A stretch of DNA of 64,000 nt from Staphylococcus sp. (GTDB lineage Bacteria; Bacteroidota; Bacteroidia; Bacteroidales; Muribaculaceae). The notes beneath the pieces were generated by a model. That model was given only the letters and a program-made list of their open reading frames with translations, had not been told where the DNA came from and made no database searches. Shown here piece by piece: positions 49,642 through 64,000 of the stretch (position 1 is the first letter of the stretch; the number at the start of each line of letters is the position of its first letter). The position numbers and the translations under genes are program-made. The stretch spans positions 2,431,659-2,495,658 of the forward strand of contig JAMPDC010000001.1 in assembly GCA_023665865.1 (NCBI GenBank), written 5' to 3'.

Positions 49642-50838
49642 TTATAGCTTCATTTTTTTCGCAATCTCAGCAGGGATAGCCTCGCGGTTCACGAGGATGT
49701 CGATAGTCTTTGCGAGGAAATAGGGCTCTGATACGTAGAAGAAACCGTCGTAGATCTGGTTGGTGTCCCAGGAGTTCTTGACCTTGTAGTATTTGTTGCC
49801 TTTCTGGTCGACAGCTTTGCCTACGATCACCATGCCATGATCATCGGTGGTCTCCTGCTTGTCAAACATCTGCTGGCGCAGTTCGGGAGTCACATTGATT
49901 TCCTCACAGGGTCCATTGATCTTATTGGCCTCGATCTCGCGGTCTTTGTCGCTGAGTTTGACCCAACGCGAGAGTTCGGTGCCCGAGAGATCGTTGGCGG
50001 TTTTCTTTTTGGGCATGAGAGCGTAGCCTTTGGTCCAGTTAAAACCGGGTTCACTGACGTCGGCAGCCCAGGCTACGGTATATCCGTTGTCGATGGCATT
50101 GTCAACGATGGCCTTCATTTCCTCGAGGGGTACGTTGTGATACTTCTCCCACAGCCAGTTGTCGGCAACTTCCACGGCAAATGATTCATAGAACGGATGG
50201 TGGGTGAACGAGGTCACGGGCACATAGTCGGCAGCATTGAGCCCGAGCGATTTGGCATAGCTCTCAGGAGTGTAGGTCTGACCTTCATATACGAAAGTTG
50301 CGGGGAGCTCTCCGAAATATGCGTCGAGCATGCCGGTAAAGGCATTTTTCCAAGAGGGCGATTTGAATTTCTGGGCGTTGATCGAGTTGAGAAATGAAGT
50401 GAAAGCGCTGCTGAGTTCAGCATGTTCATGCTTTTCGGCTCCATATTCGATGCCACGGTAAGCCTCTTCGGGGACGAGTCCGTAGTTGACCATCACGTAA
50501 GGCACATCAAGTGTGCTGCCGCCCTGGGCGAAGTTGATCTTGCCGTTCATGCGGATAAACTTGTCGGCCTTGTCGTTGTAGCAGTGGCGCACGACAAACA
50601 TTTCGCTGAGATCCACTTCTTTGCCGGTCTTGCGGAGGATTTCGTCTTCAAGGAAAGAGATACCCGAAAAACTCCAGCATGTTCCTGACTTGTTCTGGTC
50701 TTTGACTGGTGTGGTCTTGACGACTTTCACATCTTTAAATTTGAAACCGCCGGTTGCGTCATCGGCGTTTTTCTTGTCTTCTGCCTGTGCTCCGAGAGCC
50801 ACACAGAGGGCCATTGCCCCGAAAAGATATTTATTCAT
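49642..50838 (-). CDS. Secreted C1B cysteine peptidase (aminopeptidase C/bleomycin hydrolase-like)
   Basis: This 398-residue protein has a signal peptide (about 1-19), which cytosolic bleomycin hydrolases lack. The papain-like triad is visible: QNKSGTCWSFSG with Cys54, DDHGMVIVG with the histidine, and KNSWD with the asparagine. Homologues in Bacteroidales release amino acids from peptides, here probably in the periplasm. A good promoter lies upstream (TTG, 19 nt, TAACTTTG). It is divergent from the PorT-like gene. Confidence 0.92.
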   Translation of the reverse strand: MNKYLFGAMALCVALGAQAEDKKNADDATGGFKFKDVKVVKTTPVKDQNKSGTCWSFSGISFLEDEILRKTGKEVDLSEMFVVRHCYNDKADKFIRMNGKINFAQGGSTLDVPYVMVNYGLVPEEAYRGIEYGAEKHEHAELSSAFTSFLNSINAQKFKSPSWKNAFTGMLDAYFGELPATFVYEGQTYTPESYAKSLGLNAADYVPVTSFTHHPFYESFAVEVADNWLWEKYHNVPLEEMKAIVDNAIDNGYTVAWAADVSEPGFNWTKGYALMPKKKTANDLSGTELSRWVKLSDKDREIEANKINGPCEEINVTPELRQQMFDKQETTDDHGMVIVGKAVDQKGNKYYKVKNSWDTNQIYDGFFYVSEPYFLAKTIDILVNREAIPAEIAKKMKL

Positions 50839-50878
50839 TGGTGTGAATAGATTGGTTTAAGGTTGTTCTTAATGAATG

Positions 50879-50908
50879 CAAAGTTATCTAAAATTTATGG
50901 CAATTCAA
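50879..50908 (-). promoter_or_regulatory. Promoter of the C1B peptidase
   Basis: Minus strand TTG (50906-50908), a 19-nt spacer, then TAACTTTG (50879-50886). Confidence 0.65.
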
Positions 50909-50928
50909 GTATTTTAAAGAAAAAGTTG

Positions 50929-50936
50929 TAACTTTG
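50929..50936 (+). promoter_or_regulatory. -7 box of the PorT-like gene
   Basis: TAACTTTG on the plus strand, 45 nt before the ATG at 50982. The -33 element is not clear. Confidence 0.5.
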
Positions 50937-50981
50937 TGTCCCTAATTTAACTATATAAATCGAATCACACTCATCAGCTGC

Positions 50982-51608
50982 ATGAAAAGAAAAATTCTCT
51001 CATTCATCATAGCTGTTGTCGCGCTCGCAGGCCCGGTGGCCATCAATGCCCAGTTTCGTTGGGGTGCGACAGTCGGCGCTAATTTCAACAGTTTCAAGTT
51101 CAAGCAATCGGATATCCTGACAGTCGACCAGGCATTTGGCGAATCGGCCGGCATCCTCGGCGAGATGATGTTTCCCGGTATAGGCTTCGGTATTGACATA
51201 GGTCTCCGCTATGAGCAACTGGGCGCGACTCTCAATCTCGGCGACTTCCCCATCTGGTCAAGCCAGGGATATTCAAGCAAAGAACGAATCTATATCCACA
51301 ACGTCCAGATACCGTTCAATCTGAAATTCAAGTGGACCCGTATGCAGGGTTTTGAAGACTATCTGGCGCCTTTCATCTATGGTGGCCCTGTCTTCAACAT
51401 TCAGGCAGCCCACAGTTCCTGCGACGCATTGAAATTTTCCGGTGGCGACCTCGGTCTCTCAGTCGGCGGTGGCGTCGAGCTCTTCAGACGCTGGCAGCTC
51501 TCCGCGTCCTATACATGGGGGATGACCTATGCTCTGAAAACCAAACTGCTCACCGACTACAGCGCGCGCAACCGCACCTGGGATATACGCGTGACATACT
51601 TCTTCTGA
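50982..51608 (+). CDS. PorT family outer-membrane beta-barrel protein
   Basis: This 208-residue protein has a signal peptide (about 1-23, ending NAQF) and the small-barrel pattern RWGATVGANFNSF, GFGIDIGLRYEQLG, YLAPFIYGGPVF, LGLSVGGGVELF, and the closing aromatic strand WDIRVTYFF. This is the general PorT-like barrel family (outer membrane protein beta-barrel domain), not necessarily the type IX secretion component PorT itself. Function is unknown. Confidence 0.85.
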   Translation: MKRKILSFIIAVVALAGPVAINAQFRWGATVGANFNSFKFKQSDILTVDQAFGESAGILGEMMFPGIGFGIDIGLRYEQLGATLNLGDFPIWSSQGYSSKERIYIHNVQIPFNLKFKWTRMQGFEDYLAPFIYGGPVFNIQAAHSSCDALKFSGGDLGLSVGGGVELFRRWQLSASYTWGMTYALKTKLLTDYSARNRTWDIRVTYFF

Positions 51609-51636
51609 TCCCACCAATTCACAGACCATAAAGCAT

Positions 51637-51674
51637 AGCGCCGGCTTCTCGGACCAATCCCGGGAGCCGGCGCT
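51637..51674 (+). terminator. Hairpin after the PorT-like gene
   Basis: AGCGCCGGCT at 51637-51646 pairs with AGCCGGCGCT at 51665-51674, 28 bases past the stop. No T run follows. Confidence 0.6.
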
Positions 51675-51814
51675 TGACATATACGTATATAGTAAAGCGG
51701 CATGACGACAGATGGCCATAATGGAAACCGAAAATATGGCTCATGTCTGAAATGTGGATGCAAAAGACGCTATGAGTATCTGCATCTTTCTCACGCCATT
51801 GTCAATAGCAATAT

Positions 51815-51847
51815 TTATATAGGAAACATGATTATATAGGAAACATG
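51815..51847. repeat. Tandem 16-base direct repeat
   Basis: TTATATAGGAAACATG occurs at 51815-51830 and again at 51832-51847, one base apart. The second copy runs into the next hairpin. Otherwise the 319-base gap 51609-51927 holds two hairpins and no gene. Confidence 0.85.
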
Positions 51848-51886
51848 CAGGCCGTGTCGTTATGATGGACGACACGGCCTGCATGT
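51843..51886 (-). terminator. Seventeen-base-pair perfect hairpin after PBP1A
   Basis: ACATGCAGGCCGTGTCG at 51843-51859 is fully complementary to 51870-51886 with a ten-base loop. It lies 42 bases beyond the stop of the minus-strand PBP gene. The T run on that side is weak, so it may act as a 3' stabiliser as much as a terminator. Confidence 0.65.
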
Positions 51887-51927
51887 GTTGTGTTGATTGA
51901 TATGTCCTGATTGGGATAGTTGCGTCT

Positions 51928-54363
51928 TTAGTCGAAGACACCCTCCATAGAAGTGTCTTCAGCGTTTGAATCGGCATCTACTTCCTCGTCATAGAGTCCG
52001 TAGAATTCGCTCTCGCAGAGATTGACATCGGCAGGGAAGGTGAAGCGGGCACCCTGCGAATAGTTGAGCTTCGGGTCTCCGTAGACCTTCTTCATGAAGC
52101 GGCCATAGATAGGCAGAGCCATGGACGCGCCCTGGCCGTAGGCCATTGTGTTGAAGTGGATGAAGCGTTCGTCGCCACCGACCCACGTTCCGGCGACAAG
52201 ATTGGGAGTGAAGCCCATAAACCAACCGTCGGCGTTATAGTTGGTGGTACCTGTCTTGCCACCCATCTCAGCGGTCAGGCCGAAGCGTGAGCGCACGCGG
52301 TGGGCCGTACCCTCGTTGACAACATTGAGGAGCATCGAGAGGATGCGGTAGTAGGCTTTCTCACTGATCACCTCAGTGTGGCGCGGTGAGAATTCCGAGA
52401 TGATGTTGCCGTTGTTGTCGGCGATAGCGGTGACAAACATCGGGTCGACTCTCATGCCGTTGTTGGCAAAGGCTGAGTAGGCTGTGACCATTTCCTTGAC
52501 TGACACGTCGGCCGGGCCGAGACAGAGCGACATCACCGGAGGCAGTTCGGCAGTGATGCCGAAATTGTGCATGGTCCTGACGAGCGATGGGGGAGAGAGC
52601 TGTGAGATGAGGCGGGCTGAGATCCAGTTGTTGGAGTTGGTGAGCGCCCATTTGAGATCGACCATCTCGCCGACCCGGGCCGAGCCGGCGTTGCGCGGAG
52701 CCCAAACGTTTCCGGCCTCGTCGGTCAGCACAGGCTGCGTGTTGGAGAATTGGTCGCAGGGAGTGTAGCCCTCCTCCATTGCATAGGTGTAGAGGAAAGG
52801 CTTGACTGTCGAACCGATCTGTCGACGGCCGGTCGACACCATGTCATATTGGAAATATGAGAAGTCCGGGCCTCCGACGTATGCTTTGATGTGGCCGTTG
52901 AGCGGATCCATGGCCATGAAACCTGTGCGCAGGAAGTGTTTGTGGTAGAGCACCGAGTCGAGCGGGGTCATGACGGTGTCGACAGTGCCCGAGTAGGAGA
53001 ACACCTTCATCTCGCGCGGCGTGTTGAACGCGCGGTCGATCTCCTCGCGCGATGCACCCGCCTTGGTCATGACGCGGTAGCGGTCGGTGTTCTTCATCGC
53101 GTTGCGGATGAGGTGATTGCGGCGTATCTCCGAAAGCTCGGCGCGGTCGGTGGTGTAGGGTGCGCCTTTCGTGCCACGTTTCTCACGGAAGAAAGCCGGC
53201 TGGAGGTAGCCGCCGAGATGTTCGGCCACCGCTTCCTCGGCATACTGCTGCATGCGCGAGTCGATAGTGGTGTAGATTTTCAGACCGTCGGTGTAGATGT
53301 CATATTTCGACCCGTCGGGCTTGGGATTTTTTTCGATCCAGCCGTAGAGAGGATTGGTCTCCCATGCGATAGAGTCGTCGACAAATTTCTGGGTCTCCCA
53401 TCCGCGGTAGTTCTCACGCTCGGGTTTCTTGGCGCGGAGCATGCGGCGGAGCTCTTCGCGGAAGTAGGGGGCTATGCCATCCTTGGCATCGACGCGGTTA
53501 AATCTGAGGGTGAGCGGAAGGGCTGAGAGAGAGTCGAGCTCTGCCTTGGTGATCTTGCCGGCTTTCTCCATCTGCGAGAGCACCACATTGCGGCGCTGGC
53601 GTGTGCGCTCGTTGCGGCGCACGGGGTTGTAGTAGGCCGGATTCTTCACCATGCCGACGAGGGTTGCAGCCTCCTCGATGGTGAGATCTTTCGGGGCCTT
53701 GTTGAAATAGACGTGGGCGGCCGACTTGATGCCGACGGCGTTGTAGAGGAAGTCAAACTGGTTGAGATACATTTTGATGATCTCCTCTTTCGAATAGTAG
53801 CGCTCAAGTTTGACAGCGATCATCCATTCGATAGGCTTCTGTATCGCACGGGAGAGGAGTCCGGAACTGTTGGGCGAGTAGAGCTGCTTGGCAAGCTGCT
53901 GGGTCAGGGTCGAGCCGCCGCCGGCATTTTTATTGCCCATGAGGACTGTCTTGAAGAGCACACGTCCGAGTCCGCGCATGTCGATGCCGGAGTGATCCTC
54001 AAATCTCACGTCCTCTGTCGAGATGAGGGCGTCGATGACATGGGGCGACACTTCATCGAAGTCGGCATACACGCGGTTGCCAGTTCCGAGGAAGTAGCGC
54101 CCGATCTCTTTGCCGTCTTCCGAATAGAGCACGGAAGCGAAGCGGTCGGTCGGGTTCTTTAGCTCCTCGACGGGTGGCATATAGCCTATGACGCCGTTGT
54201 AGACGAGGAAAAGAAAGATGAATAGACCTATGATACACGATGTGAAAATGATCCACATCGTAGCGATGATGCCGCGGTGACGACGGGGCGTCTTGGCCGG
54301 CATTTTCTGACCGGGGCGCTGCGCTCCGTTGCTGTTGGGGATGTTTGATTCTGGTTGTTGCAT
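51928..54363 (-). CDS. mrcA: Penicillin-binding protein 1A (bifunctional transglycosylase/transpeptidase)
   Basis: This 811-residue class A PBP polymerises and crosslinks peptidoglycan. One N-terminal membrane helix (about 32-55) anchors it. The glycosyltransferase domain has ISTEDVRFEDHSGIDMRG and GGGSTLTQQLAKQLYSP. The transpeptidase has the active serine in GSTVKPF, the SNN motif in WALTNSNNW and KTGTTN. The C-terminal tail is acidic (EEVDADSNAEDTSMEG). A -7 box (TAAATTTG, 54408-54415) lies upstream. Confidence 0.96.
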   Translation of the reverse strand: MQQPESNIPNSNGAQRPGQKMPAKTPRRHRGIIATMWIIFTSCIIGLFIFLFLVYNGVIGYMPPVEELKNPTDRFASVLYSEDGKEIGRYFLGTGNRVYADFDEVSPHVIDALISTEDVRFEDHSGIDMRGLGRVLFKTVLMGNKNAGGGSTLTQQLAKQLYSPNSSGLLSRAIQKPIEWMIAVKLERYYSKEEIIKMYLNQFDFLYNAVGIKSAAHVYFNKAPKDLTIEEAATLVGMVKNPAYYNPVRRNERTRQRRNVVLSQMEKAGKITKAELDSLSALPLTLRFNRVDAKDGIAPYFREELRRMLRAKKPERENYRGWETQKFVDDSIAWETNPLYGWIEKNPKPDGSKYDIYTDGLKIYTTIDSRMQQYAEEAVAEHLGGYLQPAFFREKRGTKGAPYTTDRAELSEIRRNHLIRNAMKNTDRYRVMTKAGASREEIDRAFNTPREMKVFSYSGTVDTVMTPLDSVLYHKHFLRTGFMAMDPLNGHIKAYVGGPDFSYFQYDMVSTGRRQIGSTVKPFLYTYAMEEGYTPCDQFSNTQPVLTDEAGNVWAPRNAGSARVGEMVDLKWALTNSNNWISARLISQLSPPSLVRTMHNFGITAELPPVMSLCLGPADVSVKEMVTAYSAFANNGMRVDPMFVTAIADNNGNIISEFSPRHTEVISEKAYYRILSMLLNVVNEGTAHRVRSRFGLTAEMGGKTGTTNYNADGWFMGFTPNLVAGTWVGGDERFIHFNTMAYGQGASMALPIYGRFMKKVYGDPKLNYSQGARFTFPADVNLCESEFYGLYDEEVDADSNAEDTSMEGVFD

Positions 54364-54407
54364 GGATAGTTATTTGGCGGGAGAGAGTCATCCGCATAAA
54401 TAAAGTG

Positions 54408-54415
54408 CAAATTTA
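54408..54415 (-). promoter_or_regulatory. -7 box of the PBP1A gene
   Basis: TAAATTTG on the minus strand, 44 nt before the start; a TTTC lies 20 nt further upstream in place of TTTG. Confidence 0.55.
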
Positions 54416-54482
54416 AGTATTTTCCCCGAAAAAATGAAAACAGAGCTGTACCCTTTGGGAGAATCGGTGGTCATCGCGCGTC

Positions 54483-54827
54483 TCAACACATGACGGGCCC
54501 GTCAATAGTGGCGCTCCCGCTGACATTCGCATCGGCTGAGTCGATATAGGGGGCCACATAGCTCTTCAATATCCCTACATATTCTATAAACGCCTCGCGG
54601 CCGCCTTCGGTCATGCGGCAGACGGTGCGCGGACGTTTCTGATGAAATGTCTTTTCGACAGTGATATACCCGGCCTCCTCAAGCTTGGTGATCTGCACAC
54701 TGAGATTGCCCATGGTTGCCTCGGTTTTTGTCTTGAGATACATGAAATCGGCCTCCTCCACGCTCATGAGTATTGAGAGTATGGATAGACGGAGTTGGGA
54801 ATGGATCAATGGATTAAGCTCTTTCAT
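54483..54827 (-). CDS. Winged-helix transcriptional regulator
   Basis: This 114-residue protein has a MarR/ArsR-like winged helix: HSQLRLSILSILMSVEEADFMYL, then the recognition helix in ATMGNLSVQITKLEEAGYI, and the wing TVEKTFHQKRPRTVCRMTEGG. Such small regulators in Bacteroidota commonly accompany a membrane protein gene. Here its start overlaps the end of the upstream membrane gene by 14 bases, so the pair is coupled. The signal is unknown. Confidence 0.87.
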   Translation of the reverse strand: MKELNPLIHSQLRLSILSILMSVEEADFMYLKTKTEATMGNLSVQITKLEEAGYITVEKTFHQKRPRTVCRMTEGGREAFIEYVGILKSYVAPYIDSADANVSGSATIDGPVMC

Positions 54828-55377
54828 CTCTTAATTCGTATTTGATTTTATATGCGGGTAGCACCATCATGACGAGCATTGCCGCCCCGAAGATCGGGAT
54901 AGCTGTCGGGCCGGACACTACCCACAGCACTGCCGCGAGGATAAATCCGGGGATGGAACTGTATTTTAAGAATGAGAAGCGGATGAGTTCGCCCGTGATA
55001 AACGAGCCTATCGCAAGCAGGAGCAATATCATCGCAAGGACTTGGAATCTGACGACGAATGAAGAGACGGAGAGGGTCAGGATAACTACTGTCAGCATTT
55101 TCCATATCGTCAGGAGCGAATGTGAGATTGCTGTCTGCATACCTTTCTCCCTGGGACGGACACGACGCAACACAGGGAGGCCGACCACAGGAATCAGAAA
55201 CCATGCGAAATTCCAGTTGGGATTGCCGGTCAGAATGAGGCCGAGATATACTGTGATGGAAACGGCAGACGATACCCAGCCCCATACGAGAAGTGGCACG
55301 CACGAATGTCTCATGACATTGAGGCGCGTGTCGTTCATCATTTTGCTTATTATTTCAAGACTTTCCTTGGGATACAT
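54814..55377 (-). CDS. Membrane protein paired with a winged-helix regulator
   Basis: This 187-residue protein has five or six predicted helices (about residues 25-48, 52-70, 90-108, 112-130, 140-158 and 160-178) and charged ends. It has no recognised family. It is co-transcribed with the regulator that overlaps its 3' end, so it may be sensed or controlled by it. A promoter with TTG, 21 nt and TAAATTTG lies just upstream (55403-55434). Confidence 0.75.
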   Translation of the reverse strand: MYPKESLEIISKMMNDTRLNVMRHSCVPLLVWGWVSSAVSITVYLGLILTGNPNWNFAWFLIPVVGLPVLRRVRPREKGMQTAISHSLLTIWKMLTVVILTLSVSSFVVRFQVLAMILLLLAIGSFITGELIRFSFLKYSSIPGFILAAVLWVVSGPTAIPIFGAAMLVMMVLPAYKIKYELRDERA

Positions 55378-55402
55378 GGTTTATGTCGGTTGTGTTTATG
55401 CG

Positions 55403-55434
55403 CAAATTTACAAATAAGTTGACGGAATAAACAA
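55403..55434 (-). promoter_or_regulatory. Promoter of the membrane protein/regulator pair
   Basis: Minus strand TTG (55432-55434), a 21-nt spacer, then TAAATTTG (55403-55410). It makes this pair a transcription unit separate from the DUF2141 gene. Confidence 0.65.
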
Positions 55435-55462
55435 CTTTCACCAACTTATTTGATTGAAAATA

Positions 55463-55843
55463 TCAGTATTGGATTAATTTCAAGTGAAGTTCTCCGGTGC
55501 GGGTATCGGGTGTGAGGTTGGTCTGCAGGCAAGGTTCCTGCGGCCGCCCGTAGCTGTCGAAGTCAAGGATATTGTTTCCGTTCAGGTCTTGAAACGCCTG
55601 CACATTAAGCTCTTTGCCTTCGAATCCCGAAAGATTGACAGGAATCGAGACAGTGTCGCTCTCTACGTCGACGGCCGTCATGAGGATCCGGCTGTCACCG
55701 CTGCTGACGGCCACAAAGAGTTTACCCTCCGGATATGGTATGTCTGAGAACCGGAGCTGCATGGATGGATTGTCACAGATGTTGGCGGCGTTTGCCGGTA
55801 AGATGATGGCGGCTGCCAGGATGATGGTTGAAGTCATTTTCAT
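55463..55843 (-). CDS. DUF2141 secreted protein
   Basis: This 126-residue protein has a signal peptide (about 1-19) and one DUF2141 domain, with GKLFVAVSSG and the hallmark FQDLNGNNILDFDSYGRPQE. Members are small beta-sandwich envelope proteins of unknown function, common in Bacteroidota. Its ATG overlaps the stop of the 700-residue barrel gene by four bases, so the two are made together and may form one outer-membrane unit. Confidence 0.88.
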   Translation of the reverse strand: MKMTSTIILAAAIILPANAANICDNPSMQLRFSDIPYPEGKLFVAVSSGDSRILMTAVDVESDTVSIPVNLSGFEGKELNVQAFQDLNGNNILDFDSYGRPQEPCLQTNLTPDTRTGELHLKLIQY

Positions 55844-57930
55844 TTCTGTACGTTTTTGATGGTTTCGTATATGTTATTATTGTCGAGTTTCTTTCGTGTG
55901 GCGGTTCGGCGTTTGCCGTTTGAGATATTTAGCGAGACACCGATCCATGCCAGGCAGTTGGTCGATTCCGCATGGTATGTGCGTTCATAACCCGCTATTT
56001 CCGACAGATCCCTGCTCGTGATGCTTACGTTGCCGATCGGATTGACCATTCCTGCCATGAACGTGGCAGCCCGGTATCTGTAGCCTGCGCCGAGGTTCAG
56101 CAGATTGTTGTTGACACACTTCACGGTCTCGCCCCACAGGAGGTTGTAGGCATTGTTGTATTTCGCCATCACCCACCAGGGGCCGGTGACAAACATGAGT
56201 TGGGCGTTGACGAATCCCTGTCCGTAAGTGTGGCGGTAGCTCTCACCCTTGCTGACTGTCCGGTGCCACCCGCCTTCGAGGGTCAGCCGCAAGCGCTTTG
56301 TCAATATTGGCGTCGAGATCTCTCCTTTGACCGCCAGGTCATTGTTGTAGCCGGCATTGTGGTAGGTCTGCAAGATTTTCCCATCGGTATAGCTCTTCGC
56401 GCTCATGACCGGGGTATGACAATAGGTGTCGGTCACGGCGAGCCTCAGTGTCGCGTCTGAAATCTTCAGGTCAAGCCCCACTTTCGTTTTATAGCGGCGA
56501 AAAGGGGATAGCTCCGGCGATCCTGCCGAATATTGGAAGAGGTCTATCCGCTCCTCGACAGGGCTGAGTTGGCCCGCTGTGGGATTTATCGTTGATCCGT
56601 CGACCGAAATGTCGATCCCGAATCGTGTCACAGGTGTATATCTCACGAACAGCCGCGGGGTGATGTTGGCGAAGCTTCCCGCCAACGGTTTCGACATCCG
56701 TAGCAGCGAGGCGTCAGCCCCGATGATATACCGCAGCTTCCCGACACTGTGGTCCCATTCCGCGAAGGCGTGTCCTTCACGGGCAATATTCCTTGCCGTT
56801 GATCGGGACGGCGAATATGTGGCCTTGGCCTGCTCAATGTTGCCGCGCACGCCTCCTGTCAGGCGACCGCCGCCGATTCGTCCTTCCCACACACCCTCGC
56901 AGAGCAGCATGGCGGCGCGGTTTCTGATAGTGGATGAGATTGACAGTCCCTCGTTCTCATAGCTGCGGCCGCTCGTTGAGCTTACTATAGTCGGGACTAT
57001 GTTGAGATACACCTTATGCCTCCGGTTGATTTTCCAGTGGAGATAGAAGTCGACGTCGCCTTGCCATGACGATAGTGGCGCCGTCTCCTTCTCCATGCTT
57101 TCGACAGGCTGTGAACCGGCTTCTGTCGTGAGAATCGTCCCGACAGACGCGTAGCGGTCATTCCGGCGGGTGAGGCGGGCCTGGACGTTGAGCAGCAGGT
57201 CTGACTTGACGGCGTAGGAATATTGTACGGCGGCGCGGTGGGTAGCCATCCGGTTGGGTGTCTCGATCCCTCGCTCGCGGCGTGTGATCACCCGACCTTC
57301 GGGCAGCCGGATAGTCTCAGTGTTGTCGCGGTAGCAGCCCATGTCCCACATGGGATTTGAATGATAGTCGGCACTCCACTCGCTGCGCCCGGAGTTGTAT
57401 CTCAACGCGACGGTATAGTCTCCCCATCCGCGGTTTGGCGATTGCAACAGGTTCATGACCACTCCATATCCCTCTTTGCGCCGGCGCACGGTGAGATTGA
57501 CCACTCCGCTTGCGTCTCCATATCTGACGCCCGGGTCTGAGGTATATTCCACCTTTATAATATCCTTTGCAGAGATGGTCAGCAGGTCGGTCTGCGATGC
57601 TGGGCGCCCGTTGATCCTGACCGACAGTCTGCCCCCGCCTGCTATCGAGATGCTTCCGTCGGCGGGATTAACGATCAATCCCGCTATCTGTAGGCCGGCG
57701 AGTAACAGCGATGAGGTTGCCATCGTCTCTTTCAGCTCTTTAGTGGGGTAATATATCTGCCTGTTGCCCGCTTGTATGGCTTCGGGGGCCCTGACTATTA
57801 CCTCACGCAGGGTGTCAGATAGCATGGTGCTGTCGTTGGCCACCTCTTGTCGGGCATGGAGGTGAGGTGTGGCGGCAAGCCACAGCCAGATCGCTGCCGC
57901 GGCGGTGAGTATGTTTACGGTTTTCTTCAT
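55840..57930 (-). CDS. TonB-receptor-like outer-membrane barrel protein
   Basis: From the ATG at 57930 this gives 696 residues (57942 would add MSVD). A signal peptide ends near residue 27 (LHAR). A plug-like domain follows (about 45-145) with REVIVRAPEA, RLSVRINGRPAS and DPGVRYGDASGVVNLTVRR, then a long barrel. The layout fits the outer-membrane beta-barrel family 3 proteins, which resemble TonB receptors without the N-terminal carboxypeptidase-like domain. The ligand is unknown. It is co-transcribed with DUF2141 and divergent from the sigma-barrel fusion gene. Its promoter is a full consensus match. Confidence 0.88.
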   Translation of the reverse strand: MKKTVNILTAAAAIWLWLAATPHLHARQEVANDSTMLSDTLREVIVRAPEAIQAGNRQIYYPTKELKETMATSSLLLAGLQIAGLIVNPADGSISIAGGGRLSVRINGRPASQTDLLTISAKDIIKVEYTSDPGVRYGDASGVVNLTVRRRKEGYGVVMNLLQSPNRGWGDYTVALRYNSGRSEWSADYHSNPMWDMGCYRDNTETIRLPEGRVITRRERGIETPNRMATHRAAVQYSYAVKSDLLLNVQARLTRRNDRYASVGTILTTEAGSQPVESMEKETAPLSSWQGDVDFYLHWKINRRHKVYLNIVPTIVSSTSGRSYENEGLSISSTIRNRAAMLLCEGVWEGRIGGGRLTGGVRGNIEQAKATYSPSRSTARNIAREGHAFAEWDHSVGKLRYIIGADASLLRMSKPLAGSFANITPRLFVRYTPVTRFGIDISVDGSTINPTAGQLSPVEERIDLFQYSAGSPELSPFRRYKTKVGLDLKISDATLRLAVTDTYCHTPVMSAKSYTDGKILQTYHNAGYNNDLAVKGEISTPILTKRLRLTLEGGWHRTVSKGESYRHTYGQGFVNAQLMFVTGPWWVMAKYNNAYNLLWGETVKCVNNNLLNLGAGYRYRAATFMAGMVNPIGNVSITSRDLSEIAGYERTYHAESTNCLAWIGVSLNISNGKRRTATRKKLDNNNIYETIKNVQK

Positions 57931-57973
57931 GTCTACTGACATCGCTAATGAGGGGTGGGATTTGATGATGGGG

Positions 57974-58005
57974 CAAAGATAATTATATTTATATTATAAA
58001 CCAAA
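57974..58005 (-). promoter_or_regulatory. Promoter of the barrel/DUF2141 operon
   Basis: Minus strand TTTG (58002-58005), a 20-nt spacer, then TATCTTTG (57974-57981). The divergent gene has only a poor -7 match, TATCTTTA at 58108-58115. Confidence 0.8.
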
Positions 58006-58191
58006 TTATAAAACAAATATATTATGTCATGCCGTAGGCGAAGATCTTGCAAAAAAAAAGTTTTTAAATTATTCAGCTGACTGACGAGCTGTTAGCCTAC
58101 TTTTTCCTATCTTTATGAAATTTTTTTCGTGTGGTCATGCAGTCTTTTGGCATTTTTCCACTCATTAGAATAAAGACCCACTCCCGACACC

Positions 58192-59790
58192 ATGGAACCG
58201 ACCGAGCTTATCAGACAGTGTGTGGCGGGCGATGTAGCCGCTATGACCGAGCTATATCGCCTCTATTCGCCGCGCATGATGAAACTCGTGCTCCACTACG
58301 TCAGCGATAGGTCAGCGGCCGAAGACATTCTCCACGACGGCTTCATAGTGATTTTCACCCACATCTCAGAGGTGCGCACCTCTGACCGCCTCGAATACTG
58401 GATGGGGACGATCATGAAAAACCTCGCCATCCAATATCTCAGCCGCATAGAGATGTCGACTCTCCTCGGCGAAGATGATGACGACCATCCCGAAGTGCCC
58501 GACATCAACGACATACTCTCATACGAAGAACTCGAAATCATCATCAACCGCCTCCCCGAGGGCTACAGGACCATCTTTAAGCTCGCGGTTTTTGAAAACA
58601 AGTCCCACAAGGAGATTGCCGGCATCCTCGGCATAGCTCCCCACACCTCTTCCTCCCAGCTCGCGCGGGCCAAGGCCATGCTTCGCAAGATGATCGAGGA
58701 GCGCAACGCAGCCTTGCTGGCCATTCTTCTCCTCCTCATCCCTGCCGGGATCATCTTCCTCCTCACGACAGGAACCTCCGACGACACTCCACTCTCGATG
58801 CGCGTCGACCACCCTGTCGCCTCAACAGCCACACGAATTACATCTTCTCATACTATGAACACAGGCGTCATCCACACGGGGACCGGCCCTGCCTCCGGGC
58901 AGCCCGGCTCTCCCGTGATGGCTGCTGCCACATCCGCCCCCGGCAGTGTCACGGCCACCGGGCCCGATAGTGCTGTTGTCGAAAATGCGATTGCAGAGGT
59001 CCCCGCTGATACAGTCACTGCCGCCGTCCCGGCCGAAGGGCGTCCGCAGGCGCGCCCGGTCGACATGGGTAACGTCGGGAACACCCGTCGCCACACCGCC
59101 TCCTCCACCCGCCGTGGCTCCACCCGCAACAAGGGCTCATGGAGCGTCGGCGTCAACTACAGCATGAACATGTCGGCCCGTCATGGGCAGGGATTCCACA
59201 GCGACAATTCATACGCAGCAGATATGCTCCCTGACTCCATGAAACTCAGCCGCGGATCCACTGTGATTAAGGATGGCTTCAAGCAGACCATCACCCACAA
59301 GCTACCCGTGACCGTCGGGATCAACATCAACAAGAATCTCACCCCCCGTCTCGGCATCGAGACCGGCGTCAGCTTCACCTATCTGCGCAGCTCCATCACC
59401 TACCGCGAGCTTGATCTCGGCCTCGTCAATGCCACGCGCGACGTCAGCTCCTATTTCATCGGCATACCGCTCAAGCTCAACTACCGCATCTTTGACTACG
59501 GACGCTTCTCAGTCTACGGCACTGCCGGCTTGGCCCTCGACATCCCCGTTGGCACCGACGTCAAGACTGCGCATTTCGGAGAGCTGCGCAACTACCCGAC
59601 GCTCGAAAACCGTCTGCAGATGTCGGTCAGCGTAGGTGCCGGCTTCGAATACCGCCTCGTGCGCGGTCTGAGCCTCTACGTCGAACCCTCCGTGAGATAC
59701 TACCCCTCCAATGGCTCCTCCCTCCCCACCATCCGCCAGGACCAACCCTTCGAATTCACCCTCCCCCTCGGCCTCCGCTTCAACCTCTGA
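58192..59790 (+). CDS. ECF sigma factor fused to a membrane helix and a predicted outer-membrane barrel
   Basis: One uninterrupted 532-residue frame. Residues 1-170 are an ECF sigma factor: region 2 with SAAEDILHDGFIVIFTHI and EYWMGTIMKNLAIQYLSR, and region 4 with LPEGYRTIFKLAVFENKSHK and a helix-turn-helix around GIAPHTSSSQLARAKAML. Residues 173-192 form a strong membrane helix (LLAILLLLIPAGIIFLL). A 120-residue linker rich in Ala, Thr, Ser, Gly and Pro follows. Residues from about 315 resemble a PorT-like barrel: WSVGVNYSMNMS, LGIETGVSFTYL, FIGIPLKLNYRI, ENRLQMSVSVGAGFEYR, and the end FTLPLGLRFNL. The predicted topology has sigma in the cytoplasm and the barrel outside the inner membrane. 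The barrel would need export without a cleaved signal. Confidence 0.88.
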   Translation: MEPTELIRQCVAGDVAAMTELYRLYSPRMMKLVLHYVSDRSAAEDILHDGFIVIFTHISEVRTSDRLEYWMGTIMKNLAIQYLSRIEMSTLLGEDDDDHPEVPDINDILSYEELEIIINRLPEGYRTIFKLAVFENKSHKEIAGILGIAPHTSSSQLARAKAMLRKMIEERNAALLAILLLLIPAGIIFLLTTGTSDDTPLSMRVDHPVASTATRITSSHTMNTGVIHTGTGPASGQPGSPVMAAATSAPGSVTATGPDSAVVENAIAEVPADTVTAAVPAEGRPQARPVDMGNVGNTRRHTASSTRRGSTRNKGSWSVGVNYSMNMSARHGQGFHSDNSYAADMLPDSMKLSRGSTVIKDGFKQTITHKLPVTVGININKNLTPRLGIETGVSFTYLRSSITYRELDLGLVNATRDVSSYFIGIPLKLNYRIFDYGRFSVYGTAGLALDIPVGTDVKTAHFGELRNYPTLENRLQMSVSVGAGFEYRLVRGLSLYVEPSVRYYPSNGSSLPTIRQDQPFEFTLPLGLRFNL

Positions 59791-59817
59791 CCGGCCGGCG
59801 GCTAAGCCATAAATGGA

Positions 59818-59839
59818 GCTCCCGGATTTTCGGGTTTTT
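59818..59839 (+). terminator. Weak terminator after the sigma-barrel gene
   Basis: CCCG at 59821-59824 pairs with CGGG at 59831-59834, followed by TTTTT. The stem is short. Confidence 0.45.
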
Positions 59840-59851
59840 CATCAAAAAATA

Positions 59852-59882
59852 TTGTAAATGTGAAATATTGTTTTTAACTTTG
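59852..59882 (+). promoter_or_regulatory. Promoter of the candidate RNA/leader
   Basis: TTG at 59852-59854, a 20-nt spacer, then TAACTTTG at 59875-59882: a good Bacteroidales promoter almost 400 bases before the next start codon. Confidence 0.65.
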
Positions 59883-59887
59883 CTGTT

Positions 59888-60214
59888 GCAGACCGCCATA
59901 GCAGAAGCCCCGGTCTGGGGTCATGCGGGACGGGATGCAACAGACATTTTTAAGAAAGCGTTTATCCGCGCTGATTCTTGACGTTCAGAAATTCTCGCAA
60001 AATTTCATAATAAAGTCAAGGATTGAGCAACGGTAGATGCCCGTGGATATGTAATATCAGGCTTTCGGCAGAGTGCCTTGTGAAAGGTATAGCCGAATGC
60101 TATTGTTGCATATACAGCGTAGGGCTTCTGCGTGTTGCCGTCCGACTTTATTAGGGCAATGCGAGAAGCCTCTGAACGTAGGACGGTAACAGATACAGAT
60201 TCCTACGCTTTTTT
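59888..60214 (+). ncRNA. Candidate structured RNA of about 325 nt, or a long leader
   Basis: A full promoter ends at 59882 and an intrinsic terminator lies at 60177-60214, with no credible open frame between. Several stems can be drawn. CTGTTGCA at 59883-59890 pairs with 59936-59943. TTCGGC pairs with GCCGAA within 60060-60110. A long arm at about 60121-60170 has GGCTTCT/AGAAGCC and TTGCC/GGCAA separated by an internal loop. The last arm recalls the bulged helix of 6S RNA, but no family is identified. The 5' end is inferred from the promoter. Alternatively the region is a leader with an attenuator for the gene at 60274. Confidence 0.5.
60177..60214 (+). terminator. Intrinsic terminator 60 bases before the secreted-protein operon
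   Basis: CGTAGG at 60177-60182 pairs with CCTACG at 60202-60207, followed by CTTTTTTG. It would end the candidate RNA or attenuate the downstream operon. Confidence 0.7.
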
Positions 60215-60273
60215 GTGCTAATAGTTGGACTGTGGAATCTTCCAACATAAAAACCAATCGTCACAGTCCTACC

Positions 60274-60951
60274 ATGAAGAAGACTATTTTCGGACTAATT
60301 ACATTGATGCTTTTATCTGCATCCGGACTAGCTTGCGCACAATCCGCAAAGGACCAACGCAAGGAGCGTCAGGAACTTGCAAAAGCTACCAAAAAAGAAC
60401 TTAACGAAAAAGCGAGCAAAGCAGCCCGGAAAGAGGCTAAGAAACTTGACAAGGTCGGGTGGCAGACTGCTCCTGGTGCACTACCTCTTGAAAAACAGCT
60501 TGATAAATCGTATATGATGCAATATCAATACGATTCTGACGGATTCCCTCAGTTCATCATGGCTGAAGGTATGAGCACGGCAGGCAATTATGATGCGGCC
60601 AAAATGCAGGCTCTTGAGCTTGCCAAACAAAATCTCGCCGGTCAGATTCAGACAGAGATAACAGCTCTTGTAGAGAATACGGTTGCCAACGAGCAGATGG
60701 ATCAAAGCGATGCGGCCTCACTTACACGTAGTGTATTGGCAAGCAAAAATCTCATATCGCAAAGCATCGGTCGTGTAGTTCCAGTAGTGGAAACCTATCG
60801 CGTTGTAAACGGAAATAATCGTGAAGTTTTAATCCGGATTGCGTATAGTCAGAATATGGCTAAAGCAACGGCAAAAAACGCTATCAAAAAGGAACTTGAG
60901 CAGCGCGGAGACTCACTCCACAATAAACTTGATGGACTTCTTGGTTGGTAA
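60274..60951 (+). CDS. Secreted LPP20-like protein, first gene of the caspase operon
   Basis: This 225-residue protein starts at the ATG at 60274 with a signal peptide (about 1-22, ending CAQS). A lysine-, alanine- and glutamate-rich helix (about 25-55) precedes a domain resembling the LPP20 lipoprotein fold, with YDAAKMQALELAKQNLAGQI and VVETYRVVNGNNREVLIRIA. The assignment rests on pattern only. It starts 60 bases after a terminator-like hairpin and is followed within three bases by the next gene. This run is visibly richer in A and T than most of the window. Confidence 0.75.
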   Translation: MKKTIFGLITLMLLSASGLACAQSAKDQRKERQELAKATKKELNEKASKAARKEAKKLDKVGWQTAPGALPLEKQLDKSYMMQYQYDSDGFPQFIMAEGMSTAGNYDAAKMQALELAKQNLAGQIQTEITALVENTVANEQMDQSDAASLTRSVLASKNLISQSIGRVVPVVETYRVVNGNNREVLIRIAYSQNMAKATAKNAIKKELEQRGDSLHNKLDGLLGW

Positions 60952-60953
60952 TT

Positions 60954-61835
60954 ATGAAGCGTTTGTTGCTGATACTCCTGCTATTGAATTTTGAGAACTT
61001 CTTTGTATATGCGCAGAAAATCAAGAAAGTTTCTGTGACATACACCTATTGTGCCCCGGAAACTATGTCGGTTGAGGAAGCTAAACGGACTGCGCTTGAA
61101 AGAGCCAAGATACAGGCTATCGCTGATGAATTCGGCACACAGGTTTCCCAAAATACATCAACTGTTGTCTCTAATAATAATGGCGAATCTGATACCCAAT
61201 TCTTTTCTACAGGAGGAAGTAATGTAAAAGGAGAGTGGCTTGAAACCACTAAAGCTCCTGCCTACCAAATTTCATATGCAGACGGAATGTTGGTTGTTGA
61301 AGTTGCAGTTAGTGGCAAAATCAAACAATTAGGCAACTTTCAAATACCATTGAAAGTCCAGTTGTTAAGAAATGGCTTTGAGTCAAGAAACGAAGATGAT
61401 ACTTTTAGAAATGGAGATGATTTATTCATGCAATTCCAATCGCCGGTGAGTGGCAATTTGCTTGTTTATCTCATTGATTACACGGATGGCTCAGTTTTTT
61501 GCTTGCTACCCTATAGTTCATCACAAATATCCTCTGTTAATATCCAACAGGATAAAAGTTATATATTTTTCTCAGACAAACATGCTGAAAATGACGGATG
61601 TGACTTTGTGGACGAATATACTTTGACCTGTAATTCTTCATCGGGGATTGATTTCAATGAAATAGTCATATTGTTTTCCTCTGAAGAACTTGTCAAATCA
61701 GCTACTGAACGTTTAGAAAATTGCTTGCCTCGACAGTTGTCACTGGATGATTTCAACAGATGGTACTCAAAAATACTATCAACCTCAGATAAAATACAAG
61801 TTATTCGAAAACCAATCAAAATAATTAAAAACTAA
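60954..61835 (+). CDS. Secreted protein with LPP20-like start and possible DUF4384 region
   Basis: This 293-residue protein starts at the ATG at 60954, two bases after the previous stop. It has a signal peptide (about 1-20, ending YAQ). The early helix ETMSVEEAKRTALERAKIQAIADEF looks like the LPP20-type domain of its neighbour. The later part, with LFMQFQSPVSGNLLVYLIDYTDGSVFCLLP, resembles DUF4384, a domain often next to or fused with caspase-like peptidases. That resemblance fits the caspase gene two genes downstream. Confidence 0.72.
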   Translation: MKRLLLILLLLNFENFFVYAQKIKKVSVTYTYCAPETMSVEEAKRTALERAKIQAIADEFGTQVSQNTSTVVSNNNGESDTQFFSTGGSNVKGEWLETTKAPAYQISYADGMLVVEVAVSGKIKQLGNFQIPLKVQLLRNGFESRNEDDTFRNGDDLFMQFQSPVSGNLLVYLIDYTDGSVFCLLPYSSSQISSVNIQQDKSYIFFSDKHAENDGCDFVDEYTLTCNSSSGIDFNEIVILFSSEELVKSATERLENCLPRQLSLDDFNRWYSKILSTSDKIQVIRKPIKIIKN

Positions 61836-61840
61836 CAACA

Positions 61841-62902
61841 ATGAAAAAACTATTATCTGTTATCGCTTTTGCGATTGTAAGTGTCTTTGCTGTTTATGCA
61901 GGTAATGAACTCAAGACTAACTATCGTACCTCTCTGGTTCTTGCGTATTCACCTACCAACAGCATCTATGAGGATGACAATCTGAAATTGGAGATCTACA
62001 ATGAAAAATTGTGGGCTACCAACAAAACCTCAAAGACTATCTTCATTGATCTTTCGCAGTGTTTTTTGATTCACAATGGTTCCTCCTATCCGATGTTCGA
62101 TAAAGAACAGAACGAAAAAAATGCTTCAAAGAAAAAAGTATCCACATCAGTGGATGAGTTCATTTCAATCGCTCCTTCTGTAGGTACAAAGCAGAATGAG
62201 ACATTTATATGTAATTTAGGAGGTGGTGTATATGGCAAATATTCAACTACTGAATCTCCGTCTGGAGATTTCTCGCCATACGAGGAACGACTGCTCACTC
62301 TTTTGAATGAGTTGATAAACGAGAGCCTTGAGGGAGATCCGAAAGGAAAACAATATCTTGGCACTGCCTCACGACATCTTACTGAAGATGAAAGTATCAG
62401 TAACATTGGTGCTTCGATTGCCTATGCTTTCAATAAAAGATCTGAAGATTGGACTTCTGTTGCGATATCAACATGGGTAAGTGACGTTTATCTCGCTCCC
62501 TACTATGTGGAAATGCCTGTAGATCTTAAGAAAGAACAAAAACGAGGTTTTGGTGTAAAAAAGACAGAAGCCTCAAAACTCCATATCAAGGCTGATACTC
62601 CTTTTGAATTTATGGAAGATAAATCGCCGGTTATTGTATGTGATTGGGTCGGTGATTTTAAGAAAGGAACTTTCTCGCTCAATCCGACATGGGTAAGTAA
62701 AAAGAAAGGAATGGGATTTGGTAAGGTCCTCCTTGCTTCTTTTGCAACCCTTGCGACCGGTGGTGCTGGAGCTGCCTTATTTGTGAACAATGAAGAGACA
62801 TTCTATAAGAAAGTCGTGATATTCCACGGTGAAAATAGCGACTGGGGAAAGATGTCGTATTTCGACAATGATGATCTTTCGAAATTTGACAACAAACGCT
62901 GA
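61841..62902 (+). CDS. Secreted protein of unknown function in the caspase operon
   Basis: This 353-residue protein has a signal peptide (about 1-20, ending VYAG). The body has beta-strand character (LKLEIYNEKLWATNKTSKTI) and a charged middle. Near residues 290-310 lies a glycine/alanine-rich hydrophobic stretch, KVLLASFATLATGGAGAALF, that could be a membrane segment or a buried strand. No family is recognised. It starts five bases after the DUF4384-like gene and is surely in the same transcript. Confidence 0.75.
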   Translation: MKKLLSVIAFAIVSVFAVYAGNELKTNYRTSLVLAYSPTNSIYEDDNLKLEIYNEKLWATNKTSKTIFIDLSQCFLIHNGSSYPMFDKEQNEKNASKKKVSTSVDEFISIAPSVGTKQNETFICNLGGGVYGKYSTTESPSGDFSPYEERLLTLLNELINESLEGDPKGKQYLGTASRHLTEDESISNIGASIAYAFNKRSEDWTSVAISTWVSDVYLAPYYVEMPVDLKKEQKRGFGVKKTEASKLHIKADTPFEFMEDKSPVIVCDWVGDFKKGTFSLNPTWVSKKKGMGFGKVLLASFATLATGGAGAALFVNNEETFYKKVVIFHGENSDWGKMSYFDNDDLSKFDNKR

Positions 62903-62973
62903 GTTTTATAATTAATTCATATAGAATAATAGGCCGGGATTTATCATGAATAATCCCGGCTCATTCATCGATT

Positions 62974-64000
62974 ATGTCTAAGATTCTCCTTGTTATACTT
63001 TTAACATTCCCGTTTGTATCTCATGCATATAATCTTGATCGGGTTAACGATGCGCTTCAAGATTTAAAAAATGGTGATGTAGCGACTGTCATTACGAAAT
63101 TAAAGAAAAGTTCCGCAATGAATGATTTGGCCGCTCAGCACTATTTGGGGCAATGCTATGAACATGGTATTGGTGTGGAGAAAGACTCTAAGCAAGCCTT
63201 CTTGATGTATCGTCGGGCTGCTGAAAGAGGCTTTGCTCCAGCCATGGAAAAGCTTTCGCAGTGCTATAGAGATGGAATTGGAGTGATGATTAACAAATCT
63301 CGGTCAGATGAATGGTTGGCACGTTTTGACAAACGAAATGATGGTTCGTCAATCCCTGACATAGTCGCTATTTATTCTATGTGTGATACTGTTCACAAGG
63401 ATTTGGCATGTCAATCATCAACAGTTGAAAGACGGACCGCGGATGAGAAGCCAGTTTCAGTGGCGAAAAATCAGCAGCCAACCGCATATCAATACATGAT
63501 GATTGGTAGTCATAGCGTTGAGCAGGAATCAACTATTCCTGCAAAGCCGATATCAGATGTTGATGTTGATATTCCACGCTCATCGGCTGAGAAGTCCACA
63601 GTATTCGCCTTAATTATAGCAAATGAGGATTATCAAGATGTGGCCGCAGTACCTAACGCGCTCAATGATGGAGATGTGATGGCTAAATACTGCCAATTTA
63701 CCTTAGGATTACCACCGACCAATATTCATTTGATAAAGAACGCTACACTCAACAATATCAGACGAGAAATAAACATAATTAGCAAGATCGCTGAAGCATA
63801 CAAAGGCGAAGCTTCGTTCTTGGTTTACTATGCTGGACATGGAGTCCCTGATGAGGCAACACGCGATGCTTTTTTGCTACCGGTCGATGGATATGTGGCA
63901 GATATGACGACATGCTATAAGCTCAGCGATTTTTATCATACTTTAGGTCAGATGCCGTCATTGAAAACCATTGTGATGCTTGATGCGTGTTTCAGTGGTG
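62974..64000 (+). CDS. Secreted Sel1-repeat caspase-like peptidase (C14), truncated by the window end
   Basis: The frame runs from the ATG at 62974 to the window end without a stop; 342 residues are visible. It begins with a signal peptide (MSKILLVILLTFPFVSHA). One or two Sel1-type repeats follow (about residues 41-110: AAQHYLGQCYEHGIGVEKDS, then AMEKLSQCYRDGIGV), then a linker of about 90 residues. The caspase-like domain begins near residue 210 (FALIIANEDYQDVAAVPNAL). The catalytic dyad is visible: His289 in YYAGHG and Cys339 in MLDACFSG. A secreted caspase-like enzyme is unusual. It lies 71 bases after the preceding gene, with no strong terminator between. Confidence 0.88.
   Translation, partial: MSKILLVILLTFPFVSHAYNLDRVNDALQDLKNGDVATVITKLKKSSAMNDLAAQHYLGQCYEHGIGVEKDSKQAFLMYRRAAERGFAPAMEKLSQCYRDGIGVMINKSRSDEWLARFDKRNDGSSIPDIVAIYSMCDTVHKDLACQSSTVERRTADEKPVSVAKNQQPTAYQYMMIGSHSVEQESTIPAKPISDVDVDIPRSSAEKSTVFALIIANEDYQDVAAVPNALNDGDVMAKYCQFTLGLPPTNIHLIKNATLNNIRREINIISKIAEAYKGEASFLVYYAGHGVPDEATRDAFLLPVDGYVADMTTCYKLSDFYHTLGQMPSLKTIVMLDACFSG

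Follow-up and report, generated by a model that had tools for sequence, protein, structure and literature searches.

The gene described here encodes a protein of the Dma3 type, in which an ECF sigma factor, a membrane helix, a disordered linker and a β-barrel are joined in a single chain, and profile searches indicate that this fusion is a sigma factor plus a Dma protein from which the anti-sigma domain has been lost at the junction. We put at about one in two the probability that the membrane anchor now stands in place of the lost domain, with an event at the outer membrane leading, by way of proteolysis, to a free sigma factor. The positions of the gene and its parts are collected in Table 1, numbered along the window, the whole stretch of 64,000 nucleotides of DNA that was analysed.

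Table 1. Positions in the window of the fused gene, its parts and its candidate promoter
Feature	Coordinates	Strand	Details
Candidate autoregulatory ECF promoter	58138..58166	+	−35-like TGCAGT 58138–58143, 18 nt, −10-like TCATT 58162–58166
Fused sigma/membrane helix/linker/barrel gene, Dma3-type	58192..59790	+	532 aa, one intact frame
Sigma region 2, residues 21–85	58252..58446	+	PF04542 2.3e-9; pLDDT 95–98 up to residue 80, then 80
Sigma region 4.2, residues 114–164	58531..58683	+	PF08281 5.3e-13
Membrane helix, residues ~173–193	58708..58770	+	Kyte–Doolittle 3.1 over 17 residues; AF2 helix
Disordered linker, predicted periplasmic, residues 196–314	58777..59133	+	pLDDT <50 for most of 196–310
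OmpA-type outer-membrane β-barrel, residues 315–532	59134..59787	+	profile match and AF2 model

The ECF sigma factor occupies residues 1–170 of the 532-residue window protein, and a 17-residue hydrophobic peak begins 4 residues past the end of the sigma profile. In the AF2 model of the full chain, residues 150–193 form a single unbroken helix that runs from region 4 into the membrane helix, the linker of some 120 residues is disordered and the C-terminus folds as a barrel. On this model, the sigma domain would be cytoplasmic, lying a few residues from the inner membrane, with the barrel in the outer membrane. A preliminary description, made from the DNA letters, had proposed just this succession of sigma factor, membrane helix, long flexible linker and barrel in one polypeptide; the succession is conserved in 108 other fused frames, and the structure prediction bears out both the barrel and the flexibility of the linker. 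The barrel had also been likened to PorT, and no match to a PorT profile was found among the 7 Pfam matches or the best 25 of 84 NCBIfam matches to the window protein. A BFVD fold search returned single-domain matches only among the best 50 matches listed.

The Dma profile A3 matches the fusion with an E-value of 2.7e-54, covering profile positions 40–423. Of the features of the Dma family, the window protein has a predicted single membrane helix, a long disordered tether and a C-terminal β-barrel, together with those of the Dma3 type, an N-terminal sigma domain with no ECF21 sigma gene adjoining; a second sigma gene of the same cluster is lacking from the window stretch 50001–64000. Of 12 pairs of fused genes compared, 7 are less than 94% identical, and for these dN/dS is 0.04–0.12 for the sigma domain, 0.06–0.16 for the barrel and 0.24–0.59 for the linker, the linker lying above both domains in these relatives. 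The low values in the sigma factor and the barrel indicate that the fused gene is in use and that the barrel is under purifying selection.

Divergent from the fusion, at 55463–57942 on the minus strand, lies a gene for another outer-membrane barrel (PF14905), which overlaps a gene with a below-cut-off match to DUF2141. On the other side, three genes at 60232–62902 have no Pfam matches and are followed at 62974–64000 by a frame running off the window that contains a Sel1 repeat and a caspase-like domain (PF00656, 2.1e-13).

The layout itself is already known, since Dma3 of Bacteroides thetaiotaomicron (BT_2778) is described in PMC13088901, and the belief in the preliminary description that there was no characterised example is thereby superseded. 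The available text of that source (Pardue et al. 2026, citing Pardue et al. PNAS 2024 for the locus bt_2778–2779) gives the fused layout one sentence, adding that "very little is known". It defines Dma as the dual membrane-spanning anti-sigma family, made up of an anti-sigma domain, a membrane helix, a disordered tether and a barrel, and reports that the dma3 locus goes up on deletion of dma1 or dma2 and that deletion of dma3 does not revert the vesicle profile of dma1 and dma2 mutants. The accessible part of PMC10434189 lists BT2778 as a factor of the sigma-70 family, with a 2.3-fold rise at low iron. Dma3, like the window protein, has its sigma factor at the N-terminus of a Dma protein and no separate ECF21 sigma gene adjoining; the likeness is drawn from the published description and not from the BT_2778 sequence, and the text of PMC13088901, as available, does not state the status of the anti-sigma domain, the promoter, the direct targets or the spread of the type. 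The open literature that we searched yielded no report on the missing domain, promoter, targets or spread, some of which the PNAS 2024 paper may hold. New as far as this search extends are the lack of any match to the anti-sigma domain in the fused proteins tested together with the continuous helix, the grouping in one clade and the shared bipartite motif, as is the finding of no Dma anti-sigma domain anywhere in the window genome, which is 88.75% complete.

Many relatives possess, instead of the fusion, two adjoining genes for a sigma factor and a Dma protein, the latter 384–474 residues long in 23 such split pairs. The window sigma is related to the sigmas encoded beside Dma and is taken to be of the Das type, probably ECF21. 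Dma1/Das1 and Dma2/Das2 share with the fusion the same membrane helix, disordered tether and barrel, and a sigma factor of the same kind; they differ in having two genes, with an N-terminal anti-sigma domain carried by Dma, whereas a single gene encodes the fusion and gave no match to that domain. The Dma/Das family is the relevant standard of comparison, and not classical TonB-dependent cell-surface signalling. Classical systems of the FecA/FecR/FecI type do resemble the fusion in that an ECF sigma factor is controlled by an outer-membrane event, but they comprise three proteins, one of them a TonB-dependent receptor.

A profile of the anti-sigma domain, built from residues 1–60 of the Dma proteins in a training set of 23, matches 25 of 25 Dma proteins, 23 of which are the training set itself, and none of 73 fused proteins, the window's included, the best fused E-value being 0.64. 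On two-fold cross-validation, 21 of the 23 held-out Dma proteins pass 1e-3 (worst value, 0.015) and the best fused E-values of the two folds are 0.021 and 0.46, so that the separation is less wide. In a later set, the profile matches 21 of 22 Dma rows at E ≤ 1e-4, missing L242, and 0 of 30 fused proteins; at least 4 of those 22 rows repeat earlier loci or each other, and four barrel rows without an anti-sigma domain (L222, L223, L268 and L277) were judged to be broken fused copies and left out of the Dma count. In the genus of G1011, 21 of 21 split loci match at E ≤ 1e-3 versus 0 of 6 fused ones. Searched genome-wide, 5 of 11 fusion-bearing genomes, that of the window (G000) among them, have no anti-sigma domain at E ≤ 0.05, and the fusion is their sole match to the Dma profile; each of the other six has one anti-sigma domain, within a split Dma gene. 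The distance from the end of the sigma profile to the most hydrophobic 17-mer is 2–7 residues in 72 of the 73 fused proteins and −3 in the remaining one; in Dma proteins, the membrane helix is preceded by 51 residues at the median.

The fused genes also share a promoter-like motif. Upstream of most of them an A/T tract is followed by [CG]ATGCAGT[CA]TTT, about 14 nucleotides and a TC-centred −10-like element. The copy ahead of the window's gene is the only match to the promoter pattern in the window with no mismatch; when 2 mismatches are allowed, the window gives 2 matches versus 4.3 expected by chance, and since these are not above chance only the exact match counts. TGCAGT lies upstream of 59 of 73 fused genes, compared with a mean of 2.6 and a maximum of 8 in 50 shuffles, and is missing in exact form from the other 14; it was first spotted on part of this same set. 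Among 30 fused genes found by protein similarity alone, 28 are preceded by it. Over all sets, TGCAGT precedes 90 of 105 other fused genes versus 23 of 59 split pairs, and the bipartite motif precedes 80 of 105 versus 0 of 59. TGCAGT had been entertained as a mark of fused genes only, when 2 of 23 split pairs had it, and was given up at 23 of 59; only the bipartite form separates the two classes. The same −35-like element precedes the split pairs of the Bacteroides group, where its partner is mostly a −10 of the CATTTA type. At L224 and L287–L307, ATGCAGTATTT followed by a CATTTA-type −10 occurs upstream of many split Das sigma genes and is nearly the fused-gene motif. Within the 400 nucleotides that follow the fused gene, 31 of 69 loci have a second copy of the motif (mean of the shuffles, 0.02) and 38, the window's among them, have none. 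The presence of the motif before most fused genes and its recurrence before surface-lipoprotein genes point to autoregulation, in which the fused sigma would act on its own gene through this motif.

A strict form of the pattern was searched in 29 genomes and gave 24 sites in 9 of the 11 fusion-bearing ones, the other two having none, and 4 sites spread over 3 of the remaining 18. Reversing the pattern as a control gave 3 sites in the same genomes. The 28 strict sites fall before a fused gene (9), before a lipoprotein-signal-like start (12, judged by eye), before a radical SAM gene (1) and before other genes or nothing (6). In the scan for second copies downstream of fused genes, a lipobox pattern gave a count of 17, which is too low because the pattern missed several evident lipoproteins. 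The window genome has exactly three strict sites, one ahead of the fusion and two ahead of lipoprotein-like genes elsewhere. Genome G016, in which no fusion turned up, accounts for two of the four sites that fall outside the fusion-bearing genomes; these two are identical or nearly so to sites in G026, and the genes after them start alike. Ten genes scanned, 8 of them fusion neighbours, include lipoproteins (TIGR04134, CotH PF08757 and DUF4377) and also a radical SAM/SPASM protein, a methyltransferase and an oxidoreductase. Genes for a radical SAM/SPASM protein or a radical SAM-associated lipoprotein (TIGR04134) lie beside fusions at L042 (2565–6078), L046 (3224–3688), L112, L118 and L121. As radical SAM-type genes adjoin several fusions, there is a hint that a modified surface peptide or lipoprotein may be under control of the fused sigma. 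A supposed homology between the L203 lipoprotein and the lipoprotein that adjoins the fusion of G005 and G018 was ruled out by BLASTP.

From the domain order, the missing domain, the single clade, the short spacer, the continuous helix and the shared motif, all of them found by computation, we infer how the sigma factor would be sequestered, signalled to and set free. The short anchor on region 4 would keep sigma from RNA polymerase, replacing the anti-sigma domain. Binding of a ligand at the outer membrane, or failed or lost insertion of the barrel there, would expose the tether to proteolysis; intramembrane cleavage would release the sigma factor; and the freed sigma would transcribe its own gene together with a small number of genes for surface lipoproteins. 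Loss of the domain and the tight conservation of the short spacer suggest that nearness to the membrane acts as the brake on region 4, and the disordered tether offers proteases a likely point of attack. That dma3 rises in dma1 and dma2 deletants, in which Das sigmas would be free, fits the presence of the same −35-like element at the Das genes of the Bacteroides group.

Release by proteolysis is proposed by analogy with IutY of Pseudomonas putida (ECF243), a membrane-fused ECF sigma factor freed by Prc and RseP and the sole sigma/anti-sigma fusion called experimentally characterised in the available text of a review (PMC8999054). IutY resembles the window protein in the fusion of sigma to a membrane-bound C-terminal part; it differs in carrying an anti-sigma part and in serving iron-starvation cell-surface signalling, and that text describes no barrel in the same chain. 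From the same source, ECF48, ECF52 and ECF53 (SCO4117) are alike in having a C-terminal membrane extension on sigma, with proteolysis expected, and unlike in being actinobacterial and having a zinc-finger anti-sigma region (PMC8999054). An M50 protease gene is present in the window genome, which says little because each of the 14 control genomes has the family too.

Regulators such as ToxR and CadC act while anchored in the membrane, which counts against the idea that a spacer of 2–7 residues would keep a sigma factor from RNA polymerase. The fusion might likewise work uncleaved, a signal passing along the tether and helix to alter the contact of region 4 with RNA polymerase at the membrane. 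The short spacer of conserved length and the helix that is continuous in the model could pass on movement, and an unsystematic look at the linker noticed no conserved cleavage site; nevertheless, a disordered linker of this length is ill suited to carry a mechanical signal from the barrel, and the characterised fusion, IutY, is released by proteolysis according to the text cited above. We consider action in place unlikely. Improbable to a similar degree is that the barrel serves to monitor outer-membrane assembly, as a sentinel and not a ligand receptor, such that a chain that failed to insert would be degraded and its sigma freed, giving more envelope lipoproteins and more of the sentinel. 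The candidate autoregulation and lipoprotein targets and the purifying selection on the barrel accord with a sentinel, as does the effect of Dma1 and Dma2 on vesiculation reported in the available text of PMC13088901; the candidate target set, however, is small and varies between species.

The anchor would be less than a substitute if a separate anti-sigma factor of another family held sigma and the membrane part only positioned it. The preliminary description had suggested that the fusion may act without a separate anti-sigma protein, and for the Dma-type domain, to which the profile search applies, this stands: it was found neither in the protein nor in the window genome. An anti-sigma factor may possibly have been missed, because that genome is incomplete, and one of another type would lie beyond the profile; but no gene family is common to the neighbourhoods of the fusions, none lying beside more than 4 of 13 fused loci, and we regard such a protein as very improbable. 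The origin of the window fusion in a sequencing or assembly error, which a small slip might have produced given that 17 of 23 split pairs overlap (10 of the 17 by 4 nucleotides), has next to no probability and is ruled out by the 108 other distinct fused frames, the fused forms besides lacking a domain of ~50 residues that a frame slip would have kept and making up a clade of their own.

The 108 further frames, all in Bacteroidales, form 104 clusters at 95% identity when the window's is included. Relatives, 397 genomes of the family and the genomes of named species together supplied 72; 30 came, among the loci returned, from the order (393 genomes) and from the family of G719, in which 74 of 301 genomes match at 1e-60; and 6 came from the genus of G1011 (99 genomes), which was taken to be Bacteroides. 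The 28 loci from this genus among the matches listed comprise 6 intact fusions, none of them with an anti-sigma domain, 21 split pairs and 1 broken copy. Carriers in Muribaculaceae include Duncaniella, Paramuribaculum and Muribaculum caecicola; others are Bacteroides caecigallinarum, Bacteroides sp. Marseille-P3684, Barnesiella sp. WM24 and Candidatus Phocaeicola faecipullorum, and the fusion is also present in Prevotella and Alloprevotella bins. Across the phylum, 395 sampled genomes gave 3 matches at 1e-60, the window genome and one broken copy among them. As all three belong to the same order, we conclude that the fused type, recognised by sequence similarity, is common in Bacteroidales, with none seen outside it in this sample at that threshold.

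A second fused type, in Bacteroides and keeping the anti-sigma domain, had been suspected from open frames of ~620 residues; the seven such loci that were read among the matches listed (L287, L290, L300, L302, L303, L304 and L307) proved to be gene pairs separated by a stop codon. A split pair interrupted by a single in-frame stop can thus yield an open-frame length of ~620, and such a length is no proof of fusion. Genome G015 holds three fused paralogues (L042, L043 and L044), one with a truncated barrel, and the promoter motif is kept in all three. In Bacteroides muris, a truncated copy of the fused gene (L162 4001–4477 and L276 2149–2625) lies near a 1275-residue helicase-like frame, which we take to be of the kind found on integrative elements; an intact fusion occurs elsewhere in what is taken as the same genome (L251).

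In both a sigma tree and a sigma-plus-barrel tree, computed by a quick method, 51 fused rows separate from 58 split rows with an SH-aLRT of 100; these trees took in 51 of 109 fused rows and left out all unpaired sigma rows. The barrel-only tree, of 52 fused and 49 split rows, has the same separation with a support of only 71. In an earlier sigma tree of 70 fused, 23 split and 15 unpaired rows, the fused label needs two changes because one unpaired row has a branch length of 7. Rows that were truncated, frameshifted or N-holding were dropped: L164, L159 and L137 from the earlier sigma tree and from the count of the motif in 105 fused genes versus 59 split pairs. The barrel-only tree and alignment A2 are without L164, L159 and L043, and the SH-aLRT 100 trees without L164, L159, L137 and L043. 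One origin for the fused genes is the simplest reading of these trees, and a likely one.

A broader proposal, which we hold tentatively, is that the whole clade in Bacteroidales has dropped the anti-sigma domain, so that the inner membrane would serve as the anti-sigma and one chain as sensor, tether and transcription factor, controlling a small self-amplifying surface-lipoprotein regulon through −35 elements shared with the Das sigmas. This sharing would account for the crosstalk that has been reported between dma3 and both dma1 and dma2. Overall, the little-studied Dma3 type is now seen as a family that probably arose once and in which one domain is missing, and candidates are at hand for its promoter and its target genes. 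If the anchor does replace the anti-sigma domain, a signal at the outer membrane would reach transcription through one chain, and what holds a sigma factor off when it has no anti-sigma would become testable in common gut commensals.
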